A DNA stretch of 64,000 nucleotides, taken from the NCBI RefSeq assembly GCF_008868125.1, contig NZ_WAAQ01000001.1:930001-994000 (forward strand), read 5' to 3'. The notes beneath the pieces were generated by a model. It had not been told where the DNA came from. It ran no database searches and saw nothing but the letters and a program-made list of their open reading frames with translations. Below are positions 2,323 to 19,849 of the stretch, in pieces (position 1 is the first letter of the stretch; each line of letters opens with the position of its first letter). This DNA comes from Microbacterium maritypicum. GTDB taxonomy: Bacteria > Actinomycetota > Actinomycetes > Actinomycetales > Microbacteriaceae. The position numbers and the translations under genes were made by a program.

Positions 2323-2366
2323 GAGCACAGGGCCCAGGCTAGGGGGCGACCGCCGGTCGCGGAGCT

Positions 2367-2427: not shown

Positions 2428-2446
2428 TCGGGACGTCAGCCCGCGT

Positions 2447-3553
2447 TCAGAGGGTGATCCACTCGGTGCGCACCGTCACGGCGTCCAGCGCGTCGGGGTC
2501 GGGGGTGACCCCGATCCCCGGCCCCGTGGGAACCGTGAGCGTGCCATCTTCCACGACGAAGGGATCGGTGATGTCGCGCGAGTAGTAGCGGCCGGAACCC
2601 GAGGTGTCGCCTGGGAGCGTGAAGCCCGGCAGGGCGGCGAGGGCGACGTTCGCCGCGCGCCCGATCCCGGTCTCCAGCATCCCGCCGCACCACACCGGGA
2701 TGTCGTTGGCGACGCACACGTCGTGGATGCGACGCGCTTCGAGGTACCCGCCGACGCGACCCGGCTTGATGTTCACGATGGAGCACGCGCCGAGAGCGAT
2801 CGCGTCCGCCGCCGCCCTCGCCGACACGATCGACTCGTCCAGGCACACCGGGGTCGTGATCGCCCTGGCCAGCTGCGCGTGGCCGAGCAGGTCCTCCTCG
2901 TCGAGCGGCTGCTCGATCAGGAGCAGGTCGAACGGATCGAGCTTGGCGAGATGCCGCGCATCCCCGCGGTGGTAGGCGGTGTTCGCGTCGACCTGCAGCA
3001 GCACGTCGTCGCCGAAGCGCTCACGCACGGCGCGCACGGGCTCGATGTCCCATCCCGGCTCGATCTTGAGCTTGATGCGCACGTACCCCTCGTCGAGGTA
3101 GCCGCCCACCGCGCCCAGCAGCTCGGGGATCGAGTCCATGATCCCCACCGAGACGCCGCAGTCGACCCGGTCGCGCACGGCGCCGAGCTCGCGGGAGAGG
3201 GGCACTCCGGTGGCCCGCAGCTCGGCATCGAGGATCGCCAGCTCGACGGCGGCCTTCGACATGCGATGCCCCTTGAACTTCGCGAGAGCGGGAGCGACGC
3301 CCCCGGCATCCAGATCCTTCACCTGGGCGAGCGCCGGCAGCAGGAATCGAGTGATCACATCGACGCTCGCCTCGACGTACTCCGAGGAGTACAGCGGGTC
3401 GTTCATCGCGACACCCTCGCCCCAGCCCTCCGCCTCGTCGGTGACGGCGCGGACCACCAGCGCCTCGCGCACGGTCTGCACGCCGAACGACGTCCGAAAC
3501 GGCGACACCAGCGGCATCTCGATCACACGCAGCTCGAATCCGGTGAGCTTCAT
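2447..3553 (-). CDS. N-succinylamino acid racemase / o-succinylbenzoate synthase family (enolase superfamily)
   Basis: This 368-residue protein has the full catalytic set of the NSAR/OSBS branch at the numbering used for the Amycolatopsis enzyme. The first acid-base lysine is in the K161-x-K163 motif (IKLKIEPG). The metal ligands are D189 (QVDANTAY), E214 (LLIEQPL) and D239 (CLDES). The second lysine is K263 (NIKPGRVGG). The enzyme should interconvert N-acyl, probably N-succinyl, D- and L-amino acids. Many database relatives are labelled MenC, but no menaquinone gene is nearby. The gene overlaps the GNAT gene by four bases, and the M20 gene overlaps that in turn, reproducing the Geobacillus NSAR gene set. 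An AGGAGA ribosome site precedes the ATG. Last enzyme gene of the 17-kb operon. Confidence 0.9.
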   Translation of the reverse strand: MKLTGFELRVIEMPLVSPFRTSFGVQTVREALVVRAVTDEAEGWGEGVAMNDPLYSSEYVEASVDVITRFLLPALAQVKDLDAGGVAPALAKFKGHRMSKAAVELAILDAELRATGVPLSRELGAVRDRVDCGVSVGIMDSIPELLGAVGGYLDEGYVRIKLKIEPGWDIEPVRAVRERFGDDVLLQVDANTAYHRGDARHLAKLDPFDLLLIEQPLDEEDLLGHAQLARAITTPVCLDESIVSARAAADAIALGACSIVNIKPGRVGGYLEARRIHDVCVANDIPVWCGGMLETGIGRAANVALAALPGFTLPGDTSGSGRYYSRDITDPFVVEDGTLTVPTGPGIGVTPDPDALDAVTVRTEWITL

Positions 3554-4425
3554 CCCTGTTCTCCTCTGTCGATGGTGTACGCGCCGGAGCGGTCGAACGA
3601 GAGCACGCGCCCTCCACCCTCCAGCGATGATCCGAGAGTCTCGCGCAGCGCCAGACGCCACGCGGTCGCGAGTGCCGGCTCCGTGAGGCGCAACGTCTCG
3701 ATGTCGCGCGGCAGTGCCACGCGCACCAGGCGCGCGTCGGTGCGATGGCGGAGCGGTCCGAGATCCTCGCCCACACCGAGCAGCGGCTCGGCGGCCGCGA
3801 TGTCGCCCGCAGCATCGAACGGCTCCCCGTGACAGGCCGCCACGACCCGGGGGTCGCGCACGTACCAGGTCACCAGCATCCGGTCGGTGTCGTCGGCACC
3901 GTTGAGAGCGTCGGCCATGTGCCCGTAGAAGTTGCGGTGGTACGACGTCGGCGTCGCGGCGAGCTTCACGAGGTTGAAGTGCGCGTTGCGGCTGATGAGC
4001 GGATCGAAGGTCCAGGAGATCTCGTCGAGTCCTTCCTCCAGCGCCCACGCGCGCTGATGCACCTTGAGGGCGAAGCCGACGCTGCGCCCCCGCATCCGCG
4101 AGGAGACACCGGCGATGTGGCTGTGCAGGGCGCGCTGATCGGGCGCGGCGAAGAACCCGAAGCATGCGCCGACGAGCTCGTCGTTCTCGAACGCGCCGCC
4201 CACATAGCTGCCGGCCTTCGACAGGGCCCGCAGCGTCTCGACGTTGACGGGGGAGGTCTCGCCCTGCTTCGTCCAGATGCTCTGGAACAGCGCGGCGACC
4301 CTGGCGAAATCGCCCACCTCGGAGAGCAGCCGGATCTCCACCCCGGCTCTCGTGGCGGCGGCGATCGCGGCGTCGGAGGCTTCCTCCGGCGAGGCGCGGA
4401 AGGCCGCGGCATCCGTCATGCTCAT
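3550..4425 (-). CDS. GNAT-family N-acyltransferase (COG3375 type), probable D-amino acid N-succinyltransferase
   Basis: Protein of 291 residues starting MSMTDAAAF. The GNAT core is recognisable: strands around GAFENDELVGACFGFFA, then HSHIAGVSSRMRGRSVGFALK, which supplies the pyrophosphate-binding segment, and the family signature LDEISWTFDPLISRNAHFNL seen in COG3375 proteins. In Geobacillus a homologue next to NSAR transfers succinyl from succinyl-CoA to D-amino acids, and this gene has the same neighbours (M20 upstream, NSAR downstream, four-base overlaps on both sides). I therefore infer the same first step here: D-amino acid plus succinyl-CoA gives N-succinyl-D-amino acid. The family assignment is firm. 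Acyl donor and amino acid range are inferred only from context, and acetyl-CoA use is the main alternative. Confidence 0.82.
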   Translation of the reverse strand: MSMTDAAAFRASPEEASDAAIAAATRAGVEIRLLSEVGDFARVAALFQSIWTKQGETSPVNVETLRALSKAGSYVGGAFENDELVGACFGFFAAPDQRALHSHIAGVSSRMRGRSVGFALKVHQRAWALEEGLDEISWTFDPLISRNAHFNLVKLAATPTSYHRNFYGHMADALNGADDTDRMLVTWYVRDPRVVAACHGEPFDAAGDIAAAEPLLGVGEDLGPLRHRTDARLVRVALPRDIETLRLTEPALATAWRLALRETLGSSLEGGGRVLSFDRSGAYTIDRGEQG

Positions 4426-5579
4426 ACCCTTCCTCCTGCCGGCGTCCCGTGCCCTGTAGCGGATCTCTCTCGGTCAGCCAGCGCGGCGGCGATCAGCTCC
4501 CGCAGCAGCAACGTGCGCTCGGGGATCATCGCGACCACCACATGCTCGTCGTCGGCGTGCGCGCCGCCGCCCACAGCGCCCAGGCCATCGAGTGTCGGCA
4601 CGCCGAGAGCCGCGGTGAAGTTGCCGTCGGAGGCCCCGCCGACCGCAACACCCTGGAACGGCGTCAGGCCGGAGCTCTCGCCGATCGCGACGGCCTGTGC
4701 GAACAGGTGTGCCGATGATTCCGGCTCCAGCGGAGGACGGTTCGCGCCACCCTCCACGCGGATGGACGCACCCGGAAGCGTCGCGGGGATGGCGCGGAGT
4801 GCCGCATCCACCCTGTCCTGCTCGGCGACCGTGCGCACCCGCACATCGACCGCGAACTCCGCCTCGGCCGGCACCGTGTTCGTGGTGCTGCCGGCGCGCA
4901 GGAGCGTGGGGGTCACGCTGGTTCCGGCGTTCGCGTCGCCGAGCCGGGAGATCGCGAGCAGCAGGTGCGCGGCCTCGACCGCGGCGTTCACACCGCGTTC
5001 CGGTTCCAGTCCGGCGTGCGCCGCCCGCCCCGCGATATGCACGCGGTACAGCGAGACGCCCTTGCGGGCGATCTTCACGGCGCCGTCGTCGGCTGCCGCT
5101 TCGAGCACGAACGCCGCGGTGCAGCCGAGCGCCTCCTGCTCGATCAGCGTGCGCGAGCTGGGAGAGCCCAGCTCCTCGTCTCCCGTGATCAGGATGCTGA
5201 CGCCGGTGCGGTCGGGCAGCGCCGCCACGGCGTGCAAGGCCATCACGACCCCGGTCTTCATGTCGAAGCATCCCGGGCCGCGCAGCACGCCATCGTCGAC
5301 CCGGAAAGGAAGCCGCTGCAGCGAGCCGAGGGGCCAGACCGTGTCGTGGTGGCCGAGGACGAGCACGACCGGATCGCCGAACCGCCAGCGCAGGTGGGTG
5401 CGCCCGTCGATCACGATGCGCTCCGGCGCGGTGCCCAGAAGCCTCTCGCCGAGGGCCGCGAGCACATCGGCGCTGCGGGCGACGGCATCGAGGTCGTCCG
5501 ACGGCGACTCGCAGGAGACGAGGGTCTCGATGTCGGCCAGGACCAGGTCGAGGTCCGGGCCCGCCTGCACGCTCATCAC
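4422..5579 (-). CDS. M20-family metallohydrolase, probable N-succinyl-L-amino acid desuccinylase
   Basis: Protein of 385 residues with the di-zinc M20 pattern in order: HHDTVWP (first histidine ligand and aspartate), GPGCFDMKTG (bridging aspartate), GDEELGS (catalytic glutamate pair) and a C-terminal GGGAHADDEH (last histidine ligand). The dimerisation (lid) domain occupies roughly residues 175-285. The family includes CPG2-type carboxypeptidases and N-acyl-amino acid deacylases. Sitting immediately upstream of the GNAT and NSAR genes with four-base overlaps, it best fits the L-specific desuccinylase that makes the D- to L-amino acid route irreversible by releasing free L-amino acid and succinate. 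A plain dipeptidase or glutamate carboxypeptidase cannot be excluded. There is no signal peptide, so it acts in the cytoplasm. Confidence 0.85.
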   Translation of the reverse strand: MMSVQAGPDLDLVLADIETLVSCESPSDDLDAVARSADVLAALGERLLGTAPERIVIDGRTHLRWRFGDPVVLVLGHHDTVWPLGSLQRLPFRVDDGVLRGPGCFDMKTGVVMALHAVAALPDRTGVSILITGDEELGSPSSRTLIEQEALGCTAAFVLEAAADDGAVKIARKGVSLYRVHIAGRAAHAGLEPERGVNAAVEAAHLLLAISRLGDANAGTSVTPTLLRAGSTTNTVPAEAEFAVDVRVRTVAEQDRVDAALRAIPATLPGASIRVEGGANRPPLEPESSAHLFAQAVAIGESSGLTPFQGVAVGGASDGNFTAALGVPTLDGLGAVGGGAHADDEHVVVAMIPERTLLLRELIAAALADRERSATGHGTPAGGRV

Positions 5580-8500
5580 GACACCTTCGGCGCTGCGCGC
5601 ACGCCGTGGTGCAGATAGCGCTCGCCGCTGGGCAGGGAGTAGAAGACCACGGCGTGCCAGGCCTGCTCGCCCTCCGTGCGCATCACGAACTCGCCGGGGC
5701 GGACGGGCACCAGCGGGTGCTCCTGCACGGGGTCGGGGAGTAGCGCCGCGAGGGGACCGTTCAAGGTCGTGCGCATGCGCAGTCCCTCGTCGTCGCGGAA
5801 GATCTCGGTGCGCACACCGGCCCGGTCGTAGATGCCCTCGAACTCCGAGAAGTCAGCGGTGAAGGGCTCCTCGGGCGGGACGAGTCCCGCAGGCAGGTGC
5901 ACGTCGGCGACCTCGGCGAAGATCTCCCCGAAGAGCGCGTCGTACAGGTCGCGGATGTTCCCGCCGTTGGCGAGCAGCGTCACCGCGACGCCCTCGTCGA
6001 GCAGGATGCGCAGGAAGGACGACTGTCCGATGGTGTTGCCGTCGTGGCCGACGAGCTTGCGGCCGCCCCAGTCGAAGCGGATCCAGCCGATGCCCCAGCT
6101 GTCGCCGATCGAGTACGGATCCGGCACATCGACCTCGTGCTGCTGCATCCGCTCCACGCTGGCCTCCGAGAGCACCCGCGTGCCGTCGGCGGCCAGGCCC
6201 CCGGTGAGGTGCATGCGGGCGAACGCGAGCACGTCGGCGGTGGTGGAGTTGATGAGACCCGCCGGCCCCATCGAGCGGGGGAGCATCCACGCCGGGGCGA
6301 GCGTCGGTCCCTCGTCTCCGACCTCGGTGTGGCCGCTCGCCGCGCGGAACATGATCGCCTCCTCCGGCAGAGTGCACGAGTGCGTGAGCCCGAGCGGGGT
6401 GAACAGCAGGTCTCGCATGGCCTGATCCCAGCTGGTGCCGGTGATCTTCTCGATCACGCGGCCGGCGAGCACGAATCCCGAGTTGCAGTACGACATGGTC
6501 GCACCGAGCGGATGGTTCTGCGCGACCCCGTCGAGCAGCGCGACGTACTTCTCGAGGGTGTCGTCACCGCGACCGGTGTCGGTGAACACGTCGCCGTCGA
6601 TCCCGCTGGTGTGACTGAGCAGGTGGCGCATCGTGACGGTGCGGGTGACTTCGGCATCGGACGAGGCGAACTCCGGCACGTAATCGACGATCGGGGCGTC
6701 GAGATCGAGCCGACCCTCGTCGACCAGGCGCATCACCACGGATGCCGTCCACACCTTGCCCATCGAGCCGATCTGGAACACCGAGTCGTCGGTGGTCTCG
6801 ATCCCGGTGCGCACGTTGAGTATGCCGTGATGGGCATACACCGGATCCTCGCCGAGGCGGAGGATGCCGAGCGTCGCACCGGGAACCTTGTGCGCCTCTG
6901 CGAGGGCACTCAGTCGCTGCTGCCAGTGGCGGGCGTCGAGACGTGCGCGCACGGGCTTTCCCGCCGGCGGTGCGTACTGCTCCACCCAGTCGATCACCCG
7001 TCGGGAGTAGTCCGCCCGGTGCGAGGGAGGTCCGGAGAGCACGAACAGGTGCGAGCCGCCGGGGTACAGCACGAGCCGCGTGGGAACGTTCCGCTCGCGC
7101 AGCGCCGTGAACCATTGCTCGGCCTGACCCACCGGGCAGCGGTCGTCCGCCGCGCCATGCAGGATGAGCGTGGGAGTGGTGACCCGGTCGACCTGCGTGT
7201 ACGGCGACTGCGCCGAGATGCGATCCTCGTCGCGCCAGGGCAGACCGCCGTTCTCCTTCGCGGAGAGATGGTGGCCGAAATCGGAGGTGCCGCCCATCGA
7301 GAACAGGTCGGTGACCACACCTCCGGCCACGGCCGCGGCGAAGCGGTCGTCGCGGGAAGTGAGGTAACAGGTCATGAAGCCGCCGTAGCTGTACCCGGTG
7401 ACGGCGAGTCGGGCCGGGTCCGCGATGCCCTCTGCCACGAGCAGGTCGATCGGCTCGAGGAAGTCGTTCGCGTCACTGACGCCCCACTCGCCGGAGACCG
7501 CGGCGAAGAACGCGTCACCGTAGCCGTCGCTGCCGCGGGGGTTGAGGGTGAGGATCGCCCAGCCGCGGCGCGCGAGCACCTGGTGGTACGGGTGGATGAG
7601 GTCGGCGGCACCGTTCCAGGCGTTGTGCGGCCCGCCGTGCACGTCGAGCAGCAGCGGGAGAGGCCCCGTGGCGTCGGGATCGCGGCGCAGCCATCCGGTG
7701 ACCACGGTGCCGTCGGAGATCGTGAAGCGACGTTCCTCGGCCGGGACGAGCTCGACGTCGGGCGTGCCGTATGCGGTGAGGATGTGCGTCGGTCCGCCGC
7801 CGAGGTCCACGAGGGCGACGTCGCCGAACGACTCCGGCGTCGCGAGCACGATCGCGGCCGAGGATCCGGCGATCGACAGCCCCGACACGTTCGCGGTGCC
7901 GTCCACGAGCGACACGGCGCCCGTGCCGTCCTGTGCCACGCGGTACACGTGCGAGTAGCCGTTGTCGCGCAGGCAGAACACGATGTCGCCGTCGTCCGTG
8001 AACTTCGGCATACCGCCGGGGTAGCCGGGACCGCCCGGCATCACGTTGCGGTCGAGGCTCGCCGTGACGTTCCGTGCATCGCCGCCGTCGATCGGGAAGA
8101 GCAGCAGGTCCGCATTGCCGACCTCGGTGTCGGTGCGTCCGACCGCGAGCACATGGCGACCATCCGGGGTCCAGCCCACGGCCGTCGCCTGCACATCGGC
8201 GGCGCTGACCTGCACGGCCTCGCTGTTCGGATCGGTCGAGGAGCGCACGAACACGGGGATCCGCATCGTCAGATCCGCGTCGTCGTCGACGCTCGTGGAG
8301 TAGGCGATCCGCGTGCCGTCGGGCGACCAGAACGGCTCGGATGCGTGCGAGCGCCCGTGAGTGAGCACCGTGATCTTCCCCGAGGCGACGTCGAGCACAT
8401 GCAGCTGCTGCACCAGGGTGCCGAGGTTGCCGGCGCCGTCTGCCTTGTAGCCGAGCCGGTCGGCGGCGGTCGGTGCCGACCGGCGCGCGAGGATCGTCTC

Positions 8501-8908
8501 GGCCCCTTCGCCAGGGAGCGCCGCGCTGTCGACAGGCGCGGTGAAGGCGATGCGCTCCCCGTCGGGACTCCAGGCCGGTGCGCCGGCGCCGAGGGGAAGC
8601 GTCGTGACCCCGTGCGCCTCACCCCCCGCGGACGGAAGGAGCCAGATCTGCGCCGGTCCGTCCTGCGCACGCAGGAACGCCAGCTGCGAACCGTCCGGGC
8701 TCCACACCGGAGTCGAGTCCGCGGTCGCGCGGGTCAGTGCGACGGGGGTCCCGCCGGTGGCCGGCACCTGCCACAGCGCTCGCGTGTCGCGGTCGCCGTC
8801 ACGGTCGGTCGTGCGCAGCACGAAGGCCACGCGCGTGCCGTCCGGAGAGAGGGCGGGCTGCTCCGGCGTGCGGACGGAGAGCAGATCGTCGACGGTGACG
8901 CAGTTCAT
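5576..8908 (-). CDS. Fusion of an S9 prolyl-oligopeptidase-type peptidase with a class C beta-lactamase-fold serine hydrolase
   Basis: One uninterrupted 1110-residue protein. Residues 1 to about 390 form a WD40-like beta-propeller with repeated LSPDGTRV, WSPDGSQL and WSPDGERI blades. Residues about 400-650 are an S9C alpha/beta hydrolase with nucleophile Ser about 506 in GYSYGGF, a DDRCPVGQ aspartate loop and a GGSHLF histidine. After a short RLDARHWQQRL linker, residues about 670-1110 are a complete class C/D-aminopeptidase-like serine hydrolase: SMGK (Ser about 714), YCN (about 806) and HDGNT (about 952) in place of the KTG box. No signal peptide is visible, so it should be cytoplasmic. It overlaps the M20 gene by four bases and follows the importer genes. 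Inferred role: cleaving imported peptides, one domain for L-type and one for D-type or amide bonds. Confidence 0.9.
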   Translation of the reverse strand: MNCVTVDDLLSVRTPEQPALSPDGTRVAFVLRTTDRDGDRDTRALWQVPATGGTPVALTRATADSTPVWSPDGSQLAFLRAQDGPAQIWLLPSAGGEAHGVTTLPLGAGAPAWSPDGERIAFTAPVDSAALPGEGAETILARRSAPTAADRLGYKADGAGNLGTLVQQLHVLDVASGKITVLTHGRSHASEPFWSPDGTRIAYSTSVDDDADLTMRIPVFVRSSTDPNSEAVQVSAADVQATAVGWTPDGRHVLAVGRTDTEVGNADLLLFPIDGGDARNVTASLDRNVMPGGPGYPGGMPKFTDDGDIVFCLRDNGYSHVYRVAQDGTGAVSLVDGTANVSGLSIAGSSAAIVLATPESFGDVALVDLGGGPTHILTAYGTPDVELVPAEERRFTISDGTVVTGWLRRDPDATGPLPLLLDVHGGPHNAWNGAADLIHPYHQVLARRGWAILTLNPRGSDGYGDAFFAAVSGEWGVSDANDFLEPIDLLVAEGIADPARLAVTGYSYGGFMTCYLTSRDDRFAAAVAGGVVTDLFSMGGTSDFGHHLSAKENGGLPWRDEDRISAQSPYTQVDRVTTPTLILHGAADDRCPVGQAEQWFTALRERNVPTRLVLYPGGSHLFVLSGPPSHRADYSRRVIDWVEQYAPPAGKPVRARLDARHWQQRLSALAEAHKVPGATLGILRLGEDPVYAHHGILNVRTGIETTDDSVFQIGSMGKVWTASVVMRLVDEGRLDLDAPIVDYVPEFASSDAEVTRTVTMRHLLSHTSGIDGDVFTDTGRGDDTLEKYVALLDGVAQNHPLGATMSYCNSGFVLAGRVIEKITGTSWDQAMRDLLFTPLGLTHSCTLPEEAIMFRAASGHTEVGDEGPTLAPAWMLPRSMGPAGLINSTTADVLAFARMHLTGGLAADGTRVLSEASVERMQQHEVDVPDPYSIGDSWGIGWIRFDWGGRKLVGHDGNTIGQSSFLRILLDEGVAVTLLANGGNIRDLYDALFGEIFAEVADVHLPAGLVPPEEPFTADFSEFEGIYDRAGVRTEIFRDDEGLRMRTTLNGPLAALLPDPVQEHPLVPVRPGEFVMRTEGEQAWHAVVFYSLPSGERYLHHGVRAAPKVS

Positions 8909-8927
8909 GAGAACTCCAATCGGATGG

Positions 8928-9971
8928 TCAGTTCACTGTGTCCGCTGGGAGCGGGGACCGTGTTGTGGGCGGGGCCGAAACCAGGGGGATGCTTTGGGAG
9001 GTGGGCACAGTTCCGAGTGCCGCGTCGGCGTGCGTGCCCGCGAAGTGACAGGCGGCGCCGGCCGCGCCCGCGGGCAGCGGAGGTTCCGCGATCATGCAGA
9101 TCTGCCGGTCCGGTCGCGCCGCAGGACCGATCGGGCACCGCGGATGGAAGCGGCATCCGCTGGGCGGCGAATGGGGGTCGGCGGGCTCGACGTCGACGGG
9201 CGCGAGCGGGTCGACCGCCAGCAGGTTCCCGTTCCGGGTGGGCGCCGCCTGGAGCAGATCCCGCGTGTAGGGGTGCTGCGGGTCGGCGAGCACCTGCTCG
9301 GTGGGCCCGAACTCCACGATGCGCCCGAGGTACATCACCGCGATGTGGTCGCTCAGGTAGCGAACGACCGACAGATTGTGCGAGATGAACAGCATGGTGA
9401 GGTCGAGTTCGCCGCGCAGCTCCCGCACGAGGTTGAGCACCGAGCCCTGGACCGACACGTCGAGCGCCGACGTGATCTCGTCGGCGATCACGACCTCGGG
9501 CCGGGCAGCGAGCGCGCGGGCCAGGGCGATGCGCTGACGCTGGCCGCCCGAGAGCGCGGCCGGGAGCGACTGCGCGCGGTCGGCGTCGAGGCTCACCAGG
9601 TCGAGCAGACGCGCGACCTCGGCCCGCCGGGCCGCGGAACCGCGGATGTCGCGGGGGAGGGCCTCGGCGATGGACTCGCCGATCGTCATGCGCGGGTCGA
9701 GCGAGGAGAACGGATCCTGGAACACCATCTGGAGGGGGCGGCGACGGCGGAAGCTGCGCACGTCCACGCCGTCGAGCGTGATCGCACCCTCGCTGATCGG
9801 TGCGAGCCCGATCGCGGCGCGGGCCAGCGTCGACTTGCCCGAACCCGACTCGCCCACCAGCCCCACCACGGATCCGGAGGGGACGACGAGGGAGACATCG
9901 TCGACGGCGGTGAGACCTGCCCGATGCGTGCCGTAGCGCACGCTGACCCGATCGAAACGCAGCTCGCTCAT
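8928..9971 (-). CDS. Dipeptide/oligopeptide ABC importer, ATP-binding protein (DppF/OppF type)
   Basis: A 347-residue ATPase with Walker A GESGSGKST, Q-loop VFQDPFSSLDP, signature ALSGGQRQRIALARAL, Walker B VVIADEITSALD and H-loop FISHNLSVV. The C-terminal oligopeptide-transporter extension carries the cysteine-rich segment CRFHPRCPIG, which binds a [4Fe-4S] cluster in studied relatives, and a third cysteine (QICM). It pairs with the ATPase half of the next gene to energise the importer. The start overlaps the end of the fused permease-ATPase gene by four bases. The last 40 residues (after CHFAGTHADA) are longer than usual and unremarkable. Confidence 0.93.
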   Translation of the reverse strand: MSELRFDRVSVRYGTHRAGLTAVDDVSLVVPSGSVVGLVGESGSGKSTLARAAIGLAPISEGAITLDGVDVRSFRRRRPLQMVFQDPFSSLDPRMTIGESIAEALPRDIRGSAARRAEVARLLDLVSLDADRAQSLPAALSGGQRQRIALARALAARPEVVIADEITSALDVSVQGSVLNLVRELRGELDLTMLFISHNLSVVRYLSDHIAVMYLGRIVEFGPTEQVLADPQHPYTRDLLQAAPTRNGNLLAVDPLAPVDVEPADPHSPPSGCRFHPRCPIGPAARPDRQICMIAEPPLPAGAAGAACHFAGTHADAALGTVPTSQSIPLVSAPPTTRSPLPADTVN

Positions 9972-11899: not shown

Positions 11900-12894
11900 G
11901 CCTCCCTGATGGTGGATCGAGGATCGAGGAGCGCGAGGATCACGTCGATCACGAGGTTCACGACGAGTACGCCGACGCCGTAGACGAGCACGATGCCCTG
12001 CACGACCGAGTAGTCCTTGGTGAGGATCGACTGCACGATCATGGTGCCGAGGCCCGGCCACGCGAAGACGTTCTCGACCAGCACCGTGCCGGCGACCATG
12101 CCCGTCAGCAGCAGGCCGGTGAGGGTGAGGGTCGCGGTCATGGCGTTCGGCAGCGCGTGGCGCGAATAGATGCGATGCGGCGCGAGACGCTTGGCGCGTG
12201 CGGTGCGGATGAAGTCCTGGCCCAGCACCGAGAGGACCTCGACCCTGATGATGCGCGAGAACACCGCGATCGGTCCGACCGCGAGCGCCACCACGGGCAG
12301 GACGAGCGAGAACGGGGCGGTGTTGCCTGCCACCGGGAACCATCCCAGTGACACCGCGAACACGTAGACGAGGCCCACGGCGAGGAGGAACTCGGGGATC
12401 GCGGCGAGGATCACGGATCCGGTGGCGAACGCCAGCTCGAGGCCACGTCGTCGACCGCCGCGGGTGGCGACGGCCATCGTCACCCCGAGGGGGACCGAGA
12501 CCAGCAGCACCAGCAGCACCGCGAGCAGGGCGAGCTGCAGTGTGGCGGGGAGCCGCGTGGCGATGATCTGGGAGACCGGCTGACTGGTGATCATCGAGCT
12601 GCCCATGTCGCCGGTGAACAGGCCGCCGATGTAGCGGAAGTACTGCACGATGAGCGGCTGGTCGAGGCCGAGGGCTGCGCGCCGGGCCTCGACGAGCTCT
12701 GCCGGGGCGTTCAGCCCGAGGGCCGCGCGCACCGGGTCGCCCGGTACCAGGTGGATCATGAGGAAGGCAGCCGTGACCAGCACCCACACCGAGAGCAGGA
12801 ACTGCCCTCCGCGCCGGACCAGGAAGGACACCCAGGGGTTGTCCGACCGTGCGGATCTGATCAGTATCGCCTGCGTGGCGGTGGTGCTGGCCAT
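11896..12894 (-). CDS. Dipeptide/oligopeptide ABC importer, DppB-type permease
   Basis: A 332-residue membrane protein. The N-terminal helix FLLSVWVLVTAAFLMIHLVP is followed by the DppB hallmark GDPVRAALG, then five further membrane segments and the coupling loop GQDFIRTARAKRLAPHRIYSRHALPNA. It forms the inner-membrane channel with the DppC half of the downstream fusion. It lies 21 bp after the binding-protein gene and overlaps the next gene by four bases, so translation is probably coupled. Confidence 0.94.
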   Translation of the reverse strand: MASTTATQAILIRSARSDNPWVSFLVRRGGQFLLSVWVLVTAAFLMIHLVPGDPVRAALGLNAPAELVEARRAALGLDQPLIVQYFRYIGGLFTGDMGSSMITSQPVSQIIATRLPATLQLALLAVLLVLLVSVPLGVTMAVATRGGRRRGLELAFATGSVILAAIPEFLLAVGLVYVFAVSLGWFPVAGNTAPFSLVLPVVALAVGPIAVFSRIIRVEVLSVLGQDFIRTARAKRLAPHRIYSRHALPNAMTATLTLTGLLLTGMVAGTVLVENVFAWPGLGTMIVQSILTKDYSVVQGIVLVYGVGVLVVNLVIDVILALLDPRSTIREA

Positions 12895-12915
12895 CGGCTG
12901 TCTCCGGTCTTCGGT

Positions 12916-14511
12916 CTACTCGTACATGCGGATCGACGTGGGGTCGATGCCGTCGCCCTCGGTGAAGGTGGCCTTGGTCGCGAAGGTCGACCGGTTGATG
13001 TTCGCGTACGGCATGACGCTGGTCGTCGCGTACAGGGCCTGCTCGGCGGCGCCCCAGTCGTCGCATCCCTCGCTGCCGGCCTTGGCTGATGCCGCGGTGA
13101 CGGCCGCCGTGTACTCGGGGTTGTCGATGGAGGCGAAGTTGGTGCCGTCCGGCGGGTTCGGTCCGGAGTAGAACGGAACGAGCATGCTCGGCAGCGAGAC
13201 CGTGAGCGGTGCGGCCGAGATGTCCCAGTCGCCGGTGGAGAACAGGGTCTCGCTCAGGGTCGGGGAGTCCACGGCGGCGACGGTGATGTCGACCCCCAGG
13301 TCCTTCCAGGCCGCCTGGGCGAGCTCTGCCGAGGCGTTTCCGGCGTCGCCGAGCTGCGAAGAGTAGATCATGCGCAGGGTCAGCTTCTCGCCGTCCTTGG
13401 TGCGCACGCCGTCGCTGCCGGCCTTCCAGCCCGAATCGTCGAGCGCGGCGGCCGCGGCCTCGGCGTCGAACTCGGGAAGGAAGTCCGCGAGCACATCCGC
13501 GCGGCACGGGTTCGGAGACACGGTCACCAGGCCCGTCGGCACGGTGCCGGCTCCGCTGCCGAGCACCTGGCGCATCTGGTCGAGGTCGAGCGCTGCGATC
13601 AGCGCTTCGCGCACGTCCTGGTCGGCGGTGGGGCGTCCCTCCGCCTGGTTGAAGATGAACTGCCCCACCGGGGTCGGGATCTCGGTGTGGAACAGGCCCG
13701 CATCCTTCAGCCGCTTGTTGTCCGGACCGATCACGAGGGCCGCGTTGACCTCGCCGGAGAGCAGCAGGTTGGTCGCGGTCGTCTCGTTCGGGACCACGCG
13801 GAAGACCACGGAGTCGGGGAGACCCTTCTGCTTCGGGTCCCAGTCGTCCGGTCCCCACGTGAAGTCGTCGCGGCGGGTCAGCGTGTACTGGCTGTTGGGC
13901 ACGAGCTCGCTCATGGAGAACATGCCCGTGGCGCCCTCGCCCTTCGCGAGCGCGTCGGGGTCGTCGATCACGGTGCCGCAGACGATCGAGATGCTGCCGA
14001 CGTTCTCGAGCAGGAACGAGTCGGGCCGCCCGCTGGTGACGGTGACGGTGCCGGCGGCGTCGTCGCCGACGGCACTGGTGCCCGGCTGCACCTGCAGACC
14101 GATCAGGGGTGAGCCGTTGGCCGGGTCGCCGATGTGGGTGATGTTGGCCGCCACGTCGGTGGCCGTCAGCGGCGTGCCGTCCTCGCAGGTGAGGCCGTCG
14201 CGCAGCGTGAAGGTGGCGGTGGTCGTGTCGGCCTCCCACGAGTCGGCAAGGCCGGAGGCGATGCTGCCGTCCTCCAGTACCTCCACGAGCCGCGCGTAGA
14301 GGAAGCGGTCGATGGAGCGGGCGACCGACATCACGGTGACGAACGGGTCGAGACTGCCCGGGTCGGTCGAGATCACCGAGGTGAAGGTCTTGCCGTCGGC
14401 GAGGACGCCGTCGGCTCCGTCACCTCCGCTCGGCGGGGCGCCGCCGGCGCAGGATGTCAGGGCGAGCGCCGCAGCGCCCAGCAGCGCGATCAGCGGGGTA
14501 CGAGAACGCAT
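12916..14511 (-). CDS. Dipeptide/oligopeptide ABC importer, substrate-binding lipoprotein (SBP family 5)
   Basis: A 531-residue lipoprotein. The signal peptide MRSRTPLIALLGAAALALTS ends in an LTSC lipobox, with Cys21 as the likely lipidated residue. The family 5 (DppA/OppA) architecture follows, with the motif region DSWEADTTTATFTLRDGLTCEDG, the VREALIAALD segment and the late DWDISAAPLT lobe. It should capture peptides outside the membrane and deliver them to DppB and the fused DppC-DppD. The substrate cannot be read from sequence. Being surrounded by D-specific hydrolases, it may prefer peptides containing D-amino acids, such as peptidoglycan stem peptides; that is inference. Confidence 0.93.
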   Translation of the reverse strand: MRSRTPLIALLGAAALALTSCAGGAPPSGGDGADGVLADGKTFTSVISTDPGSLDPFVTVMSVARSIDRFLYARLVEVLEDGSIASGLADSWEADTTTATFTLRDGLTCEDGTPLTATDVAANITHIGDPANGSPLIGLQVQPGTSAVGDDAAGTVTVTSGRPDSFLLENVGSISIVCGTVIDDPDALAKGEGATGMFSMSELVPNSQYTLTRRDDFTWGPDDWDPKQKGLPDSVVFRVVPNETTATNLLLSGEVNAALVIGPDNKRLKDAGLFHTEIPTPVGQFIFNQAEGRPTADQDVREALIAALDLDQMRQVLGSGAGTVPTGLVTVSPNPCRADVLADFLPEFDAEAAAAALDDSGWKAGSDGVRTKDGEKLTLRMIYSSQLGDAGNASAELAQAAWKDLGVDITVAAVDSPTLSETLFSTGDWDISAAPLTVSLPSMLVPFYSGPNPPDGTNFASIDNPEYTAAVTAASAKAGSEGCDDWGAAEQALYATTSVMPYANINRSTFATKATFTEGDGIDPTSIRMYE

Positions 14512-14586
14512 CAGAAGCCTCCAGCAGTGTTCGGGATGGTGCAGGTGTGTCGTGCAGGGAGAGTGCAGTGGTGCGGGGAGTGCGGG

Positions 14587-15510
14587 TCAGACGGTCCGAG
14601 CGCGCAGCTGCTCGACGGCGGCGAACGCGGCGCGTCCGATCGACGCATCGACGAGAGGCTGCCGGTCGACGAGCGAGGCGGCCTGCGTGAACACCGCCAC
14701 GGCGTACTGGCGGCCGTCGGGATACGTGACGACACCGGCCTCGTTGCGCCAGGTAGGGAGGGTGCCGGTCTTCGCCGCGATGCGCACGTCACCGGGGAAC
14801 GCCGCGGTCAGCCGATGCGGCCAGGTCTGCAGGGCCATGATGTCGCGCGCCTGACGGCAGGCCTCGGCCGGTGCCGCGGTGTCGGTCCACAGCGCGTTCA
14901 GCAGGGTGGTGACGTCGCGCGGCGTGGAGTGCGAGGTGCGCAGCGGCTGCACGACGTCGAGTGCGAGGATCTGCTCTGCGGTCGCACCGGTGAACAGCTC
15001 GTCGAGGTCGCTGTCGGCGGCGCCGCCGAGGTCTGACACCACCGAGGCAAACAGGTCTTCGCAGCATCCGATGAGACGAGTGCTGCGCAGCCCCAGATCG
15101 GTGATGACCCGGTTGACGGCCTCGCCGCCGAGGCGGTGGTAGATGATGTCGGTGGCTGCGTTGTCGCTCATCGACATCATGTTCAGCGCCAGGTCGCGCC
15201 AGCTGACCTCGACGTCGTCGGCGAACCCGGCCGTGCCCACGCCGCCGATGCGATAGCGCGCCGTCACGGTGGTGCGCTCGGTCGGATCGAGCTCGCCCGC
15301 GGCGACCGCGCGGACGAAGGCGGTGAGCACCAGGATCTTGAACACCGAGGCGAGCACCACCGGCTCGTCGGCGCCGAAAGTCACCTCGGGGCCGTCGGCC
15401 CCGCCGATTTCCCGCGCATGCAGGAAGCCCGTGGCCCCCGCATCCGCGAAGATGTCGGCGACTTCGGGCACGGTCTGCGTGTCCGTCATCGAGGCGGGCG
15501 CGTTCGTCAT
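14587..15510 (-). CDS. Class A beta-lactamase-fold serine hydrolase, cytoplasmic
   Basis: Protein of 307 residues with the three class A landmarks: SVFK (Ser about 55), SDN (about 114) and KTG (about 247). It lacks a signal peptide, so it is unlikely to be a periplasmic or secreted antibiotic-resistance enzyme. The omega-loop glutamate typical of true class A beta-lactamases is not obvious at the expected place. Relatives are annotated only as serine hydrolases. In an operon full of peptide-degrading enzymes, a D-peptidase, amidase or esterase role is more likely. The ATG overlaps the stop of the upstream class C gene by four bases. The binding-protein gene begins 75 bp downstream. Confidence 0.82.
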   Translation of the reverse strand: MTNAPASMTDTQTVPEVADIFADAGATGFLHAREIGGADGPEVTFGADEPVVLASVFKILVLTAFVRAVAAGELDPTERTTVTARYRIGGVGTAGFADDVEVSWRDLALNMMSMSDNAATDIIYHRLGGEAVNRVITDLGLRSTRLIGCCEDLFASVVSDLGGAADSDLDELFTGATAEQILALDVVQPLRTSHSTPRDVTTLLNALWTDTAAPAEACRQARDIMALQTWPHRLTAAFPGDVRIAAKTGTLPTWRNEAGVVTYPDGRQYAVAVFTQAASLVDRQPLVDASIGRAAFAAVEQLRARTV

Positions 15511-16895
15511 GCGTCGATCCGGCGGTCGGCACGTCCGGTGTGCAGGTACAGGGCGCGACCGCTGCCGTCGTCGCCGACGAACGCGTGCGGCATGTGCATG
15601 CCGTTCTGCGGTTCGCGGGGGAGGAGCGTGTCCCCGGCCCAGCCGACGAGCTCGACGGGTTCGGGAGCAGGGCCCAGCTCGGCGAAGATGCCCTTCATGG
15701 TGCGTTCGAGCCAGATGCGGCCGTCTTCATCGACACGCACGGTCGAGTCGGAGACCGACGACGAGTACGTGCCGATCACCCGTTCGAGGTCGATCGCGAC
15801 CGGCGATTCCGGAACAGAGGGGAGGGCCGGAACCGTGACTCCGGCGAGAGCGTCGAGCACCTTCGACGTGATCGCGTGATACGCGTCGACCGTGCGTCCG
15901 CCGTTCGTGAGCACAGCGACCGCGACACCCGCGCCCGGCACCATCCGCAGGAACGCGTTCTGCCCGATCGTTCCGCCGTCGTGACCGATGACGGGGCCGC
16001 CGTCCCAGTCGAAGATCTCCCAGCCCAGACCCCACGCATCGCCCATCAGTCCGAGTTCGGGAAGGTCGACCTGGCGCTCCTGCATGGCCCGCACGCTCTT
16101 CTCGGAGAGCACTCTGGTGCCGTCGGCTGCGACCCCGCCGTCGAGGTGCATGCGCGCATAGGTCACCAGGTCGCGTGCCGTCATGGCGAGCATCGATCCG
16201 GCCGGGGCGTTCGAGCGCACGAGGCTCCACACCGGTGCAGGTACCGGCTCATCGCTGCCGCCTGCGGGGATGTGTCCCAGAGCTGCACGGAACATGATCG
16301 CCTCGGCGGCCGTGGTGGCCACGTGCGTCAGTCCCAGCGGGGCGGCGAGGTGGGCGCGCAGCGCCTGGTCGTACGACGTTCCGCGCAGCACCTCGATGAT
16401 GCGGCCGAGCACGACGAAAGCCGCGTTGTTGTAGGAGAAGCGCTCACCGGGGGCGAAGAGCTGCGGGGCGTCGGCGATCGTGGCGAGGTACTTCTCCACG
16501 GCGTCGTCGCCGACCCCGGTGTCGTTGAACAGGTCGCCCTCGAATCCGCTCACATGGCTCAGGAGCTGGCGGGTGGTGATCGCGCTCGCCGCCGCGTCGT
16601 CGCCGATCGCGAACGCGGGCACGGTGTCGCGCACCGGGACGTCGAGGTCGAGCAGACCCTCGTCGACGAGCTGCATGACGAGTGTCGCGGTCCACGTCTT
16701 CGTGATCGAGCCGATCTGGAAGACCGAGTCCTCGTCGGCTTCGACGCCGGTGTTGCGATTGAGGATCCCGGCGGCGGTGGTGAAGATCTCGCCACCGGCC
16801 AGGATCGCGACGGATGCTGCAGGGATGTGCGCGTCGGCCAGCATCGTGGGAAGGTTCTCCCGCACCCAGCTGCCGATTTCGTTCAGGTCGGACAC
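15507..16895 (-). CDS. Class C beta-lactamase / D-aminopeptidase-like serine hydrolase
   Basis: Protein of 462 residues. Catalytic motifs are SITK (Ser about 62), YNN (about 155) and HDGGT (about 303), the last in the KTG position, as in D-aminopeptidases, esterases and DD-peptidase-like enzymes rather than AmpC. The C-terminal roughly 110 residues form a lipocalin-like barrel domain (IGTYSSSVSDSTVRV). It closely resembles the C-terminal half of the S9 fusion encoded downstream in the same operon, including the shared stretches GVEADEDSVFQIGS-like and TRVLSEKSVRAMQ-like, suggesting duplication. There is no signal peptide, so it is cytoplasmic. Substrate inferred as D-amino acid peptides or amides. 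Confidence 0.88.
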   Translation of the reverse strand: MSDLNEIGSWVRENLPTMLADAHIPAASVAILAGGEIFTTAAGILNRNTGVEADEDSVFQIGSITKTWTATLVMQLVDEGLLDLDVPVRDTVPAFAIGDDAAASAITTRQLLSHVSGFEGDLFNDTGVGDDAVEKYLATIADAPQLFAPGERFSYNNAAFVVLGRIIEVLRGTSYDQALRAHLAAPLGLTHVATTAAEAIMFRAALGHIPAGGSDEPVPAPVWSLVRSNAPAGSMLAMTARDLVTYARMHLDGGVAADGTRVLSEKSVRAMQERQVDLPELGLMGDAWGLGWEIFDWDGGPVIGHDGGTIGQNAFLRMVPGAGVAVAVLTNGGRTVDAYHAITSKVLDALAGVTVPALPSVPESPVAIDLERVIGTYSSSVSDSTVRVDEDGRIWLERTMKGIFAELGPAPEPVELVGWAGDTLLPREPQNGMHMPHAFVGDDGSGRALYLHTGRADRRIDA

Positions 16896-17036
16896 GTGCG
16901 CTCCTCTTCGTCGAGTGGGCCGTCGTCTGCGGGCGACGGCGATGGGCCGAGACTATTCGCGCGCTCCCTCGCCTCGTTGGTGCGCGGCGACGAGACTTGC
17001 GCGGACCTTGGTGCGCTCCGACGAAGGATCGGCGGC

Positions 17037-18365
17037 TCAGCGGCGGCGCACCGCGCGCATGCCCACGTGCAGGAGCTGGGGGCCGCCCTCCGCCGGGTCG
17101 AGAAGACGGCCGACGGGCTGGTCCGTGTCGGTGATCAGGGCGCCGTCGGCACGCACACGCAGCCGCAGCGGCGGACGAGGAGGGATGCCGAGGGCCGCGA
17201 TGTCCTCACGCAGCACCATCGCGAACTCGAGGGCGTCGCCGTCAAGGGTCACGTCGTAGCGCCACTGCCCGGCGTCGTACGTGCCGAGCAGTCCTTCGAG
17301 CTTCTCGACCGGCTGCAGCTGCGCAGCCTCCACGGACTTCTCGATGCCGCGCAGCCGCGCGAAGCACCAGTCGACGACCGCGGATCCGAGTGCCTTGCCG
17401 CTGCCGCTGTTCGTCAGCACGGTGATGGCCAGATCCTCATCCGGGGCGAGGACGAACTCGCTCAGCTGCATGTCGGAGATGTTCCCGCCGTGCATCACGA
17501 CCCGTGCCGATCCGTGCCGCGTGAGCAACCAGGGCAGACCGATGGCGTCGATGGGCGGCCCCGCGGCGAGGTGGGGCTGCTGCATCAGGAGTCTGGTCGC
17601 CTCGCCCACGGGTGCTGCGCCCTCCGCCTCGCCGCGCATCTGGAAACGGGCGTAGGTGAGCTGGTCGCGCACGGACGACACGATGCCGCCCTCGGGCGCG
17701 ATGTCGCGGGTCAGCGGCCACTGGGGGAACGCGGCCATCGCTGCGTCCTCACCGGGCACGTGTCCGACGGCATGGGGGCGTGCGATCACGTCCCACGGGA
17801 AGAAGAACGTCTCGGACATGCCCAGCGGGTCGAGGACGATGCGCTGCACCGCCTGCTCGAACGTCTCGCCCGTCGCCTCCTCGATCACACGACCCAGCAG
17901 GCGGATGCCGGAGTTGCTGTAGGAGGCGATCGTGCCGGGGGAGAAGAACTGCGGGAGCTCGGAGAAGCCGGCGACGCTGCGGGCGAGGGCGTCGTCGTCC
18001 CACCCCGGATGATCGTCCGCGTCGCCCAGGAAGCCGCCAGAGTGCGTGAGGAGGTGGCGGATGCGCAGCTCTGCGAGGGCGTCCTCGTCTCGGAGCCGGA
18101 AGTCGGGGAGCACATCGACCACATGGCCGTCGAGGTCGAGCACGCCGCTCTCGACCAGATGCATCGCGACGGTTCCGGTGAACGTCTTCGTCGTCGAGCC
18201 GATCTGGAAGAGCGTGCGCGCGGTCACGGCGGCACCGGTGTCGACAGCGGCGACACCGGTGGCGGCGATGACTTCCCGGTCGCGGTCGATCACGCCGACC
18301 ACTGCGCCGGGCACGCCGAGCTCCGCGGCCGTGGCGTCCAGGAACTCCTGCAGCTCGTCGTCCAT
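17037..18365 (-). CDS. Second class C beta-lactamase-like serine hydrolase
   Basis: Protein of 442 residues starting MDDELQEFLDATAAELGVPG. Motifs are STTK (Ser about 56), YSN (about 148) and HGGN (about 292) in place of KTG. The C-terminal beta-domain is shorter and diverged from the neighbouring paralog. Without a signal peptide it should be cytoplasmic. Its ATG shares one base with the stop codon of the amidohydrolase gene, so translation is coupled. A 141-bp gap then separates it from the next hydrolase gene; that gap contains no clear terminator, so I treat the operon as continuing. Probable D-amino acid peptide or ester hydrolase. Confidence 0.88.
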   Translation of the reverse strand: MDDELQEFLDATAAELGVPGAVVGVIDRDREVIAATGVAAVDTGAAVTARTLFQIGSTTKTFTGTVAMHLVESGVLDLDGHVVDVLPDFRLRDEDALAELRIRHLLTHSGGFLGDADDHPGWDDDALARSVAGFSELPQFFSPGTIASYSNSGIRLLGRVIEEATGETFEQAVQRIVLDPLGMSETFFFPWDVIARPHAVGHVPGEDAAMAAFPQWPLTRDIAPEGGIVSSVRDQLTYARFQMRGEAEGAAPVGEATRLLMQQPHLAAGPPIDAIGLPWLLTRHGSARVVMHGGNISDMQLSEFVLAPDEDLAITVLTNSGSGKALGSAVVDWCFARLRGIEKSVEAAQLQPVEKLEGLLGTYDAGQWRYDVTLDGDALEFAMVLREDIAALGIPPRPPLRLRVRADGALITDTDQPVGRLLDPAEGGPQLLHVGMRAVRRR

Positions 18366-19849
18366 CAGGCATCCCCTCGTACGGCGCGCCCCGGCAGGGC
18401 ATCGGTCACGATCTCTCCCGCGTGCACGACACGAGTGCCGTGCACGAAGAGCTCGCGCACACCCCGCGACGGGCGGGTCGGATCGGCATAGGTGGCTCTG
18501 TCCGTCAGCGTCGTCGGGTCGATCACCACGACGTCGGCATCCGCCCCGATCGTCAGATGGCCCTTGCCCCGCATGCCGGACGAGACCTCGTCGAGCACAC
18601 GAGCGGGGAGGAACGAACAGCGCCGGAAGGCTTCGACCCAGCTCCACGTGCCGCTGTCGAGAACCATGAGCCGCAGCGACTTCGCGAACGTGCCCGCGGT
18701 GCGGGGATGCGTGTGCCCGCCCGCGGGAAGCGGCCACTCGTGCTGCTCGTACACCGTCCCCCCGCCGCTCGCCGCCCAGGAGATGGGCATCGCATCACTC
18801 GCCACGATCGAGTCGGGATAGGCCAGCGCACGGTGCAGATGCGCGCGGTCGAAGGGATCGGCCTCGTCGAGGAACGTCACGATGCAGGTGGCGCCGGGGT
18901 CGATCGCCCGCACCTCGCGCAGCCGGGCTTCGTCGGCGATGCGCTCGCCGGTGTCGACGAGCACCAGAGAACTCGGAGTGATGCCGAGCCCCGCGAGTTT
19001 CTCCGGGGCGAGGAAGAACGCGCCGATCGCCGTGCTGCCGGCGCCGTAGGGGTAGGCCTCGACCGTCACGCGGGAACCTGCGGCGCGGCTGCGATCCAGC
19101 AGGCCCAGCACCCGGTCGATGTGTCGCAGCGAGGTGCTGTTCACGTGGCAGTGATGCATCGCCGCCCCGGTCTCCGCGGCGGCGCGGACGAGCTCCTCAG
19201 AGCCGTCGATCGGTGTGCGCGGATCGGCCTCGATCAGTTCGCGCACGTGCGTGAAGGTCGGGGCGTGGGCAGCGGCGGCCAGCCGGGAGAGGGCGAGGTA
19301 CTCGTCGGGGTCGGACCGCGGCGCGTAACCCATCAGCACGCCGATCCCCAGTGCGCCGGCACCCAGCTCATCCTCCAGCAGGCTCAGCCATCGGCGGCGT
19401 TCGGCGGGGGAGGAGGACCGCTGCCAGTCGGGTGTGCCGAGCAGATCCATTGACGCGGTGAAGTCGGCGACGGGCACCCGGTCGAGGTGCGCGTACGCCC
19501 GCGCCTGCGACCAGGAAGCCGAGAAGCCGTAGTTCAGCGGGCGTCCGTCCGCGGCGGCGCGGGCGAGGGCCTCGGCGATCGGCATGAGTCCGGCCTCGAG
19601 ATCGAGGGCGGTGGTGACACCGTCCATCGCCTGCAGCCGGTGCCCCGCGATCGAGTGCACGTGGCTGTGCAGGTCGACGAAACCCGGTCCGACGATGAGG
19701 CCCGTCACGTCCACCACCTCGGCATCGGTCGGCGCCGTGAGCCCGTCGCCGACCGCGGCCACCCGCCCCTGGGCGATCAGCAGATCGGTGATCCGGTCGG
19801 TTTCCGTCTTCGGGTCGATGACGCGCCCGCCGCGCAGCAGTGTGTCCAC
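18365..19849 (-). CDS. D-aminoacylase-type amidohydrolase (N-acyl-D-amino acid deacylase family)
   Basis: Protein of 494 residues beginning at a GTG (VDTLLRGGRVIDPKT). Amidohydrolase features are the N-terminal beta-sandwich, GPGFVDLHSHVHS with the first metal histidines, HVRE and HCHVNS further on, and the terminal ADADVVVIDPTT sandwich strand. The layout matches the D-aminoacylase/AAD subgroup, which frees D-amino acids from N-acyl forms. The usual HxH is spaced as HSH here. An open frame extends upstream without a better start, and the conserved fold begins at the GTG. It heads the minus-strand operon and is divergent from the LacI gene. Dihydroorotase-like or N-acyl-D-glutamate specificity is possible. 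Confidence 0.86.
   Translation of the reverse strand: MDTLLRGGRVIDPKTETDRITDLLIAQGRVAAVGDGLTAPTDAEVVDVTGLIVGPGFVDLHSHVHSIAGHRLQAMDGVTTALDLEAGLMPIAEALARAAADGRPLNYGFSASWSQARAYAHLDRVPVADFTASMDLLGTPDWQRSSSPAERRRWLSLLEDELGAGALGIGVLMGYAPRSDPDEYLALSRLAAAAHAPTFTHVRELIEADPRTPIDGSEELVRAAAETGAAMHHCHVNSTSLRHIDRVLGLLDRSRAAGSRVTVEAYPYGAGSTAIGAFFLAPEKLAGLGITPSSLVLVDTGERIADEARLREVRAIDPGATCIVTFLDEADPFDRAHLHRALAYPDSIVASDAMPISWAASGGGTVYEQHEWPLPAGGHTHPRTAGTFAKSLRLMVLDSGTWSWVEAFRRCSFLPARVLDEVSSGMRGKGHLTIGADADVVVIDPTTLTDRATYADPTRPSRGVRELFVHGTRVVHAGEIVTDALPGRAVRGDA

Follow-up and report, generated by a model that had tools for sequence, protein, structure and literature searches.

The window analyzed here, meaning the whole stretch of 64,000 nucleotides taken from the 3.67-Mb genome of Microbacterium maritypicum (contig NZ_WAAQ01000001.1; C1:930001-994000), contains a minus-strand row of genes whose predicted products would import peptides, hydrolyze them and convert D-amino acids into L-amino acids. 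Twelve intact genes, each with one terminal stop, occupy positions 2447-19849, and a thirteenth continues the row down to 649. In the order from 19849 to 649, they code for a D-aminoacylase-type amidohydrolase, two S12 serine hydrolases, a class A-type beta-lactamase-fold protein, a solute-binding lipoprotein, DppB, a DppC-OppD fusion, OppF, an S9-S12 fusion, an M20 metallopeptidase, a GNAT acyltransferase, an N-succinylamino acid racemase (NSAR) and a PucR-type regulator. The junctions between the twelve genes, measured from 2447 upward, are of -4, -4, -4, 19, -4, -4, 21, 75, -4, 141 and -1 bp, so that seven of the eleven are overlaps and the widest gap is 141 bp; this is the compact arrangement claimed earlier in a reading of the letters alone (hereafter, the original prediction). 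The twelve genes are all open, with third-position GC values of 0.87-0.93.

The three genes at the low-coordinate end of the twelve form the part of the row with the best-defined chemistry. The racemase (2447..3553) matched the N-acylamino acid racemase of PDB entry 1sja without gaps along residues 1-366 (583 bits, E 3e-174), and scored above the cut-off of TIGR01928 (289.7 versus 200.65), a model named o-succinylbenzoate synthase. It contains K163 and K263, which we take to be the two catalytic lysines, and D189, E214 and D239, presumably the three metal ligands, as well as R266, a position where 89 of 90 aligned rows, counting that of the window, have arginine. An arginine at this position reportedly favours NSAR activity, as Truong is said to have found in 2021. 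A role of this protein in menaquinone synthesis was set aside because the genome encodes a separate MenC elsewhere (NF002782, 476.9, cut-off 288); this, together with the filling of the catalytic, metal-binding and R266 positions as in racemases, separates the NSAR function from the MenC one. Upstream, with 4-bp overlaps between NSAR and GNAT and between GNAT and M20, lie the genes of the acyltransferase (3550..4425), a predicted D-amino acid N-succinyltransferase, and of the M20 metallopeptidase (4422..5579; PF01546, 85.6 bits), a predicted N-succinyl-L-amino acid hydrolase. The GNAT protein fell just under the Pfam cut-offs (21.8 bits for PF13480, with a cut-off of 22, and 20.6 bits with a cut-off of 20.7) and gave no PDB match by sequence; it shows 33 invariant residues in 45 aligned members, and it is the weakest single annotation of the triad. 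For the M20 protein the nearest solved enzyme was carboxypeptidase G2 (1cg2, E 1.2e-39), and its residues H77, H78, D134 and H341 were kept in 67 of 67 aligned rows. Altogether, the identification of the NSAR triad is well supported by these comparisons. The GNAT enzyme would act on D-amino acids with a succinyl group, and the M20 enzyme would cleave the N-succinyl-L forms.

The hydrolases of the row are more diverse. The fusion protein (5576..8908) consists of 1110 amino acids, with an S9 prolyl-oligopeptidase-type part (PF00326, 152 bits; GYSYGG) and an S12 beta-lactamase-fold part (PF00144, 210 bits; SMGK, YCN, HDG). The four beta-lactamase-fold serine active sites of the original prediction, one of them fused, were recovered as three PF00144 domains, one being that of the fusion, and one PF13354 domain, the former with the motifs SxxK, YxN and HxG and the latter with SxxK, SDN and KTG; the earlier reading had missed that the fused domain sits on an S9 peptidase. 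Among 8000 scored candidates, 1747 were relatives of the S9-S12 fusion at E<=1e-100. The first stand-alone S12 hydrolase (15507..16895; PF00144, 221.5 bits) carries SITK, YNN and HDG, the first residue of each motif being invariant in 76 aligned rows, and the second one (17037..18365; PF00144, 207.7 bits) appears to be accessory. In the class A-type protein (14587..15510; PF13354, Beta-lactamase2, 175.7 bits), SVFK, SDN and KTG are conserved in 51 relatives. It does not contain an ExxLN motif; as it has an invariant glutamate, E151, which we assume to sit at the spacing of E166 of TEM, a loss of deacylation cannot be claimed for this protein. Solved relatives of the S12 enzymes include IS11 (7spn), an entry named alpha/beta hydrolase, penicillin-binding protein-like enzymes, an alkaline D-peptidase and a D-Ala-D-Ala carboxypeptidase.

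The last hydrolase, the amidohydrolase (18365..19849; Amidohydro_3), was assigned to subfamily NF006560 (615, cut-off 340), in agreement with the D-aminoacylase type proposed for it, and is predicted to act on N-acyl-D-amino acids. It resembles N-acyl-D-glutamate deacylase (3gip, E 3.4e-25) and D-aminoacylase (1m7j, E 3.9e-24) in its family and in its conserved histidines, and differs from both in that the matches are of only 88-92 bits and in its own subfamily; entries for a carbohydrate de-N-acetylated protein and PpOngB (9kb3, 9kb1) were also matched with 56 bits. H61, H63, H201, H232, H233 and H235, present in 17 of 17 rows, are presumably metal-binding residues. The description of these hydrolases as D-specific, which had been part of the original prediction, holds weakly or not at all for the beta-lactamase-fold enzymes, whose solved relatives comprise esterases, a cyclase and beta-lactamases besides D-peptidases. 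Any preference of the S12 and class A proteins for D- or L-residues would thus be conjectural.

Between the S9-S12 fusion and the class A-type protein, the row encodes an importer of the Dpp/Opp type, composed, according to Pfam, of a family 5 solute-binding lipoprotein (12916..14511; PF00496, SBP_bac_5, 169 bits), the DppB permease (11896..12894; PF00528, PF19300), a DppC permease-OppD ATPase fusion (9968..11899; PF00528 at 91-274, PF00005 at 325-483, and PF08352), and an OppF/DppF-type ATPase (8928..9971; PF00005 and PF08352). The presence of a peptide-type importer, cytosolic hydrolases and the NSAR triad in one unit, as proposed originally, found support; the fusion of DppC to OppD and the continuation of the row with PucR had passed unnoticed. 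The binding protein counts among its solved relatives proteins that bind murein peptides, nickel and oligopeptides, and peptides would be the cargo. In a tree of DppB proteins, the 26 rows belonging to the cluster (25 chosen loci plus the window) formed a single, long-branched clade (support 100/100). Importers found near a racemase in four other regions (L119, L121, L125 and L126) fell outside this clade, in different places, the exact positions being unsure since the branches are long. The Microbacterium regions L119 and L121 have importer and racemase on one strand, and L125 and L126 have them on opposite strands. L119 is a ten-gene row (SBP, dppB, dppC, oppD, oppF, S12, M20, GNAT, NSAR and PucR); in L121, neither a GNAT nor an M20 relative is seen. 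That a row of this kind has also recruited a different importer argues for a functional tie between importer and racemase. The window contains another importer of peptide/nickel type at 41484-46717 on the plus strand, with a second SBP_bac_5 protein, a permease and an ABC ATPase; its DppB is 33% identical to that of the cluster.

Regarding the location of the products, an export signal with lipobox was obvious, among the soluble proteins, only in the solute-binding protein, as judged by a simple hydropathy scan rather than by SignalP. In the same scan, both S12 proteins displayed moderately hydrophobic stretches in their first 45 residues, and the M20 protein gave a lipobox-like match that was taken for chance. 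The absence of signal peptides from the hydrolases, an element of the original prediction, is consistent with this result. The PucR-type gene (649..2427; HTH_30 above cut-off) starts 19 bp past the racemase, or 118 bp if a later start at 2328 is correct. In view of this position, and of the recurrence of PucR beside the racemase elsewhere, the row is counted as thirteen genes, with PucR as its likely regulator. A scan for terminator-like sites from 400 to 20200 detected none between genes of the minus strand, where the sole match lies inside dppC-oppD; the total number of matches is at chance level.

The conservation of the gene set was studied at several taxonomic levels. An even sample of the class (345 genomes) was used to avoid a bias from picking genomes by the query; the racemase was searched at E<=1e-80, with 101 positive genomes, and the S9-S12 fusion at E<=1e-200, with 25 positives. 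Judging from the printed coordinates, 24 of the 25 fusion genomes (23 of 24 when the window is discounted) have the racemase no more than 7.5 kb away from the fusion. The exception, L211, is a 13.6-kb contig where GNAT is the last gene matched. Importer, M20 and GNAT were found in all 24 fetched non-window fusion loci; the racemase was inside the fetched stretch in 21 of them, and just outside by coordinates in two more. PucR stood on the same strand within the stretch in 19 of the 24, and the second S12 hydrolase had no same-strand relative in any of them.

For named genomes, genome contigs were scanned for the fusion, and the best 80 of 112 loci were retained, from Microbacterium, Arthrobacter, Amycolatopsis, Kribbella, Nocardioides, Lentzea, Catellatospora, Streptomyces, Promicromonospora and others. 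Counts refer to the 68 loci with sufficient flanks, twelve with short flanks being left out (L007, L009, L015, L033, L034, L045, L056, L061, L063, L066, L069 and L085). Among these 68, the importer was present in 63, racemase and GNAT were on the same strand within the stretch in 42 (32 of them also with M20), and importer and racemase-GNAT coincided within the stretch in 39; PucR was on the same strand in 40, and the second S12 hydrolase had a same-strand relative in 8. When the rest of the genome was searched for 26 of the 27 loci that showed no same-strand racemase (all but L028), a racemase was found in 21. In 13 loci, nine of them of Amycolatopsis, a block of D-aminoacylase, M20, GNAT, NSAR and PucR is located directly upstream on the same contig, the D-aminoacylase-type gene being present in all 13 (64-67% identical) and M20 not being found in one. 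This indicates that the gene set is kept with a permuted order. A first count of importers without racemase (24 of 68) was discarded, since it was largely an artefact of the flanks, with the triad beyond the stretch in those 13 loci. As to the other eleven, L028 among them, the racemase-GNAT pair of L019 and L021 is on the opposite strand; L035 and L041 begin at a contig end, with the racemase block on another contig; L036, L048, L052 and L075 have their racemase elsewhere in the genome; the genome of L072 contains no racemase at E<=1e-60; and L032 is an additional copy, the racemase of its genome standing at L023. With the extended loci considered, the loci that combine importer, racemase and GNAT on one strand number 52 of 68, or 54 with the two opposite-strand cases. 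Homologous clusters are thus not ones from which the importer or the triad is consistently absent, either among these loci or in the class sample, a finding on the side of the original prediction.

Within Microbacterium, the racemase was detected in 142 of 198 genomes at E<=1e-60. In 40 regions picked by hand, the whole importer-fusion-triad unit was found in 14, and in another one it is interrupted by the end of the contig; other regions showed the triad with PucR alone or GNAT and racemase alone. A phylum-wide set (40 of 74 places, chosen by hand and mostly higher-scoring) showed a GNAT relative on the same strand and at 300 bp or less from NSAR in 34 of 40 regions. Since the racemase is common in genomes without the fusion, and the triad or the pair occurs alone within the genus, it is the racemase-GNAT pair that forms the widespread core. 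The importer-hydrolase unit adds to this core and, where present, is nearly always accompanied by the pair. In a separate group of nine regions (L111-L118 and L120, family f13), with Microbacterium racemases of 60-65% identity, the place of the importer near the racemase is repeatedly taken by a putative cyclase (PF04199; of these regions, only L113 was scanned).

Some loci contain additional or exchanged partners. A homologue of M19 membrane dipeptidase lies between OppF and the fusion in 5 of the 80 loci (L038, L057, L062, L071 and L077; Pfam was run in L077 only). Enzymes of the M19 family are known to cleave dipeptides with a C-terminal D-residue. In L032, which is without the triad, the fusion is directly followed by an FAD oxidoreductase of the DAO family, which reached no D-amino acid dehydrogenase cut-off, a RidA-type protein and an amidohydrolase. 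Both the M19 proteins and the oxidoreductase-RidA partners of L032 would fit a pathway yielding D-amino acids. Near a distant racemase-GNAT pair (L126:6809-8545), there is a 578-aa protein, 31% identical to M19 dipeptidase, beside an S12 protein; its C-terminal extension, in our judgement, resembles glutamine amidotransferase.

Taking these data together, the row is probably a catabolic operon for peptides, and probably also N-acyl amino acids, that contain D-amino acids. The lipoprotein would capture the substrate, and the dedicated importer would carry it into the cytosol. There, amide bonds would be cut by the stand-alone beta-lactamase-fold hydrolases and by the S9-S12 fusion, whose S9 half probably acts beside L-residues and whose S12 half probably acts beside D-residues; N-acyl groups on D-residues would be removed by the amidohydrolase. 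The freed D-amino acids would be N-succinylated by the GNAT enzyme and then epimerized by the racemase, and the M20 enzyme would hydrolyze the N-succinyl-L form to the L-amino acid and succinate, with PucR probably sensing an intermediate. Of this account, the comparisons establish the order of the genes, their families, the conservation of catalytic residues and the conserved co-occurrence, whereas the substrate, the chirality preferred by each hydrolase, the succinyl nature of the acyl group and the role of PucR are inferred. The recurrence of the gene set in other actinobacteria suggests a real nutritional system.

Two known systems are related to this proposal. The NSAR pathway, an irreversible conversion of D- to L-amino acids, was reportedly described by Sakai and co-workers in 2006, and the row is like it in having the GNAT, the enolase-superfamily NSAR and the M20 hydrolase in adjacent genes, with conserved catalytic residues, and unlike it in adding a peptide-type importer, the S9-S12 fusion, the serine hydrolases, the D-aminoacylase-type amidohydrolase and PucR. 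The dpp-ykf operon of Bacillus subtilis uses an Ala-Glu dipeptide epimerase, an M55 D-aminopeptidase, an LD-carboxypeptidase and an NlpC/P60 enzyme. The likeness to it resides in the combination of a dipeptide ABC importer, peptidases and an enolase-superfamily enzyme inverting a D-residue (for YkfB and YkfC, see PMC5808125), and the difference is that none of those four enzymes is in this row. Therefore, the triad was already known, and operons with importer, hydrolases and epimerase are known in kind from B. subtilis, so that the assertion that no described system combines such parts was too strong. Among the papers listed by searches of an open-licence library, judged by their titles and the openings of their abstracts, none dealt with the whole gene set; subscription papers may exist.

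The similarity to dpp-ykf gives a basis to an alternative interpretation, in which the imported food would be stem peptides of peptidoglycan, recycled as in B. subtilis. The row shares with dpp-ykf the logic of dipeptide importer, D-hydrolases and enolase-superfamily epimerase, and the binding protein has a murein peptide-binding protein (4toz, E 1.8e-18) as one of its solved relatives. Against it, no Pfam match to LD-carboxypeptidase, NlpC/P60 or M55 (E<=0.001) was obtained among the twelve genes, the racemase is far under the cut-offs of Ala-Glu epimerase models (72.7 versus 500 for NF041118 and 44.2 versus 343 for NF011708), an epimerase-like enzyme, itself under its cut-offs, is encoded elsewhere in the genome (C1:231990), and D-Ala and D-Glu have, as a matter of general knowledge, ordinary racemases. 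As the enzymes that define the murein-peptide system of B. subtilis are absent from the row, stem peptides, which the original prediction had named among the likely foods, are a possible substrate and not the favoured one, and we deem muropeptide recycling unlikely as the function of the operon. The epimerase-like gene just mentioned (C1:231990-232916, L002) belongs to the enolase superfamily, with the DgcA and Ala-Glu epimerase models as the nearest ones, and is about 3.5 kb away from another dppB paralogue (C1:227574-228458).

N-acyl amino acids of either chirality, instead of peptides, could also be the substrates, if the D-aminoacylase and the M20 enzyme served to deacylate them, the racemase to link the two pools and the GNAT enzyme to detoxify. 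Racemases of this kind accept N-acyl amino acids, according to PMC8142540 and PMC8762209, and D-aminoacylase and M20 genes are adjacent in 12 of the 13 extended loci. This leaves unexplained why a peptide-type importer and the S9-S12 fusion accompany GNAT and M20 in 24 of 24 sampled loci, and makes N-acyl amino acids quite improbable as the sole food. Still more remote is a function in defence, with the beta-lactamase-fold proteins inactivating beta-lactam or peptide antibiotics, either imported or made nearby. The four beta-lactamase-fold active sites and the many loci of Amycolatopsis and Streptomyces speak for it, while no listed NCBIfam beta-lactamase model reached its cut-off (best general models 84.5 versus 200 for class A and 71.8-88.5 versus 415 for class C), for which reason antibiotic resistance was set aside. 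Furthermore, the hydropathy scan showed no export signal in these enzymes, it would be odd to import an antibiotic first, and amino acid inversion would have no role.

Several results also weigh against the catabolic operon for D-residue peptides that we prefer. Concerning the cargo, the importer family also transports nickel and other compounds, and nickel-labelled NCBIfam models gave the permeases their highest scores, as NikA did for the binding protein, all of them below cut-off. Solved relatives of the S12 enzymes include esterases and beta-lactamases too. The stand-alone hydrolases are variable, with S12 and class A proteins in 10 and 14, respectively, of the 24 class-sample loci, and those stretches hold no amidohydrolase more than 29% identical to that of the window (26-29% in 17 of them). 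Importer and racemase also occur apart: among the 68 loci, nine with the importer have no racemase found beside them, three have racemase and GNAT without importer (L046, L065 and L067, with M20 missing in L065), L020 has an opposite-strand racemase and no importer, and L074 has neither; in the phylum-wide set, importer permeases were found in none of the 40 racemase regions; and 76 of the 101 racemase-positive genomes of the class sample are without the fusion at E<=1e-200. Finally, no more than 7 of 126 genera and 4 families are represented by the 25 fusion genomes, with a single family accounting for 18, and because of this clustering the class-sample counts are not independent.

With respect to ecology, soil isolates of Arthrobacter, Microbacterium, Nocardioides, Streptomyces and Promicromonospora are typed as users of L-/D-amino acid pairs in PMC4912152, and the cluster occurs in these genera, the match being by genus and not by strain. 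A broad supply of D-residue peptides in soil would fit the fact that Arthrobacter, Microbacterium and other actinobacteria were isolated on single members of L-/D-pairs (PMC4912152), and the operon would offer a genetic basis for soil actinobacteria growing on D-amino acids. A bolder proposal, which we put forward only tentatively and with more doubt than conviction, is that of a widespread actinobacterial system for peptides of mixed chirality, e.g., microbial non-ribosomal peptides, with the fusion as a two-chirality peptidase cutting at L- and D-residues in turn, and the triad inverting the freed D-amino acids. The Amycolatopsis N-acylamino acid racemase, which we take to be that of PDB entries 1sja and 4a6g, is known mainly as a biocatalyst, and works cited in PMC7431475 and PMC8762209 carry titles to this effect. 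The Amycolatopsis neighbourhoods considered here come from strains other than the source of that enzyme. If the mixed-chirality proposal were true, this would be what racemases of the Amycolatopsis type do in the cell. More generally, the operon would give the racemase family a testable physiological role, tied to a dedicated importer and an S9-S12 fusion.

As for the surroundings of the row, a divergent group of plus-strand genes at 20027-25311 encodes LacI, an ABC ATPase in which ABC_tran matches twice, and a protein of the Peripla_BP_4 family, which suggests a sugar-type ABC operon. Since LacI (20027) precedes this sugar-type system, it was set aside as a regulator of the peptide row; a LacI gene is beside the cluster in 7 of 9 full-length close relatives (L087-L090 and L092-L096). 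Farther away, the minus strand encodes a copper amine oxidase at 29019-31052 (PF01179, 504.5 bits).

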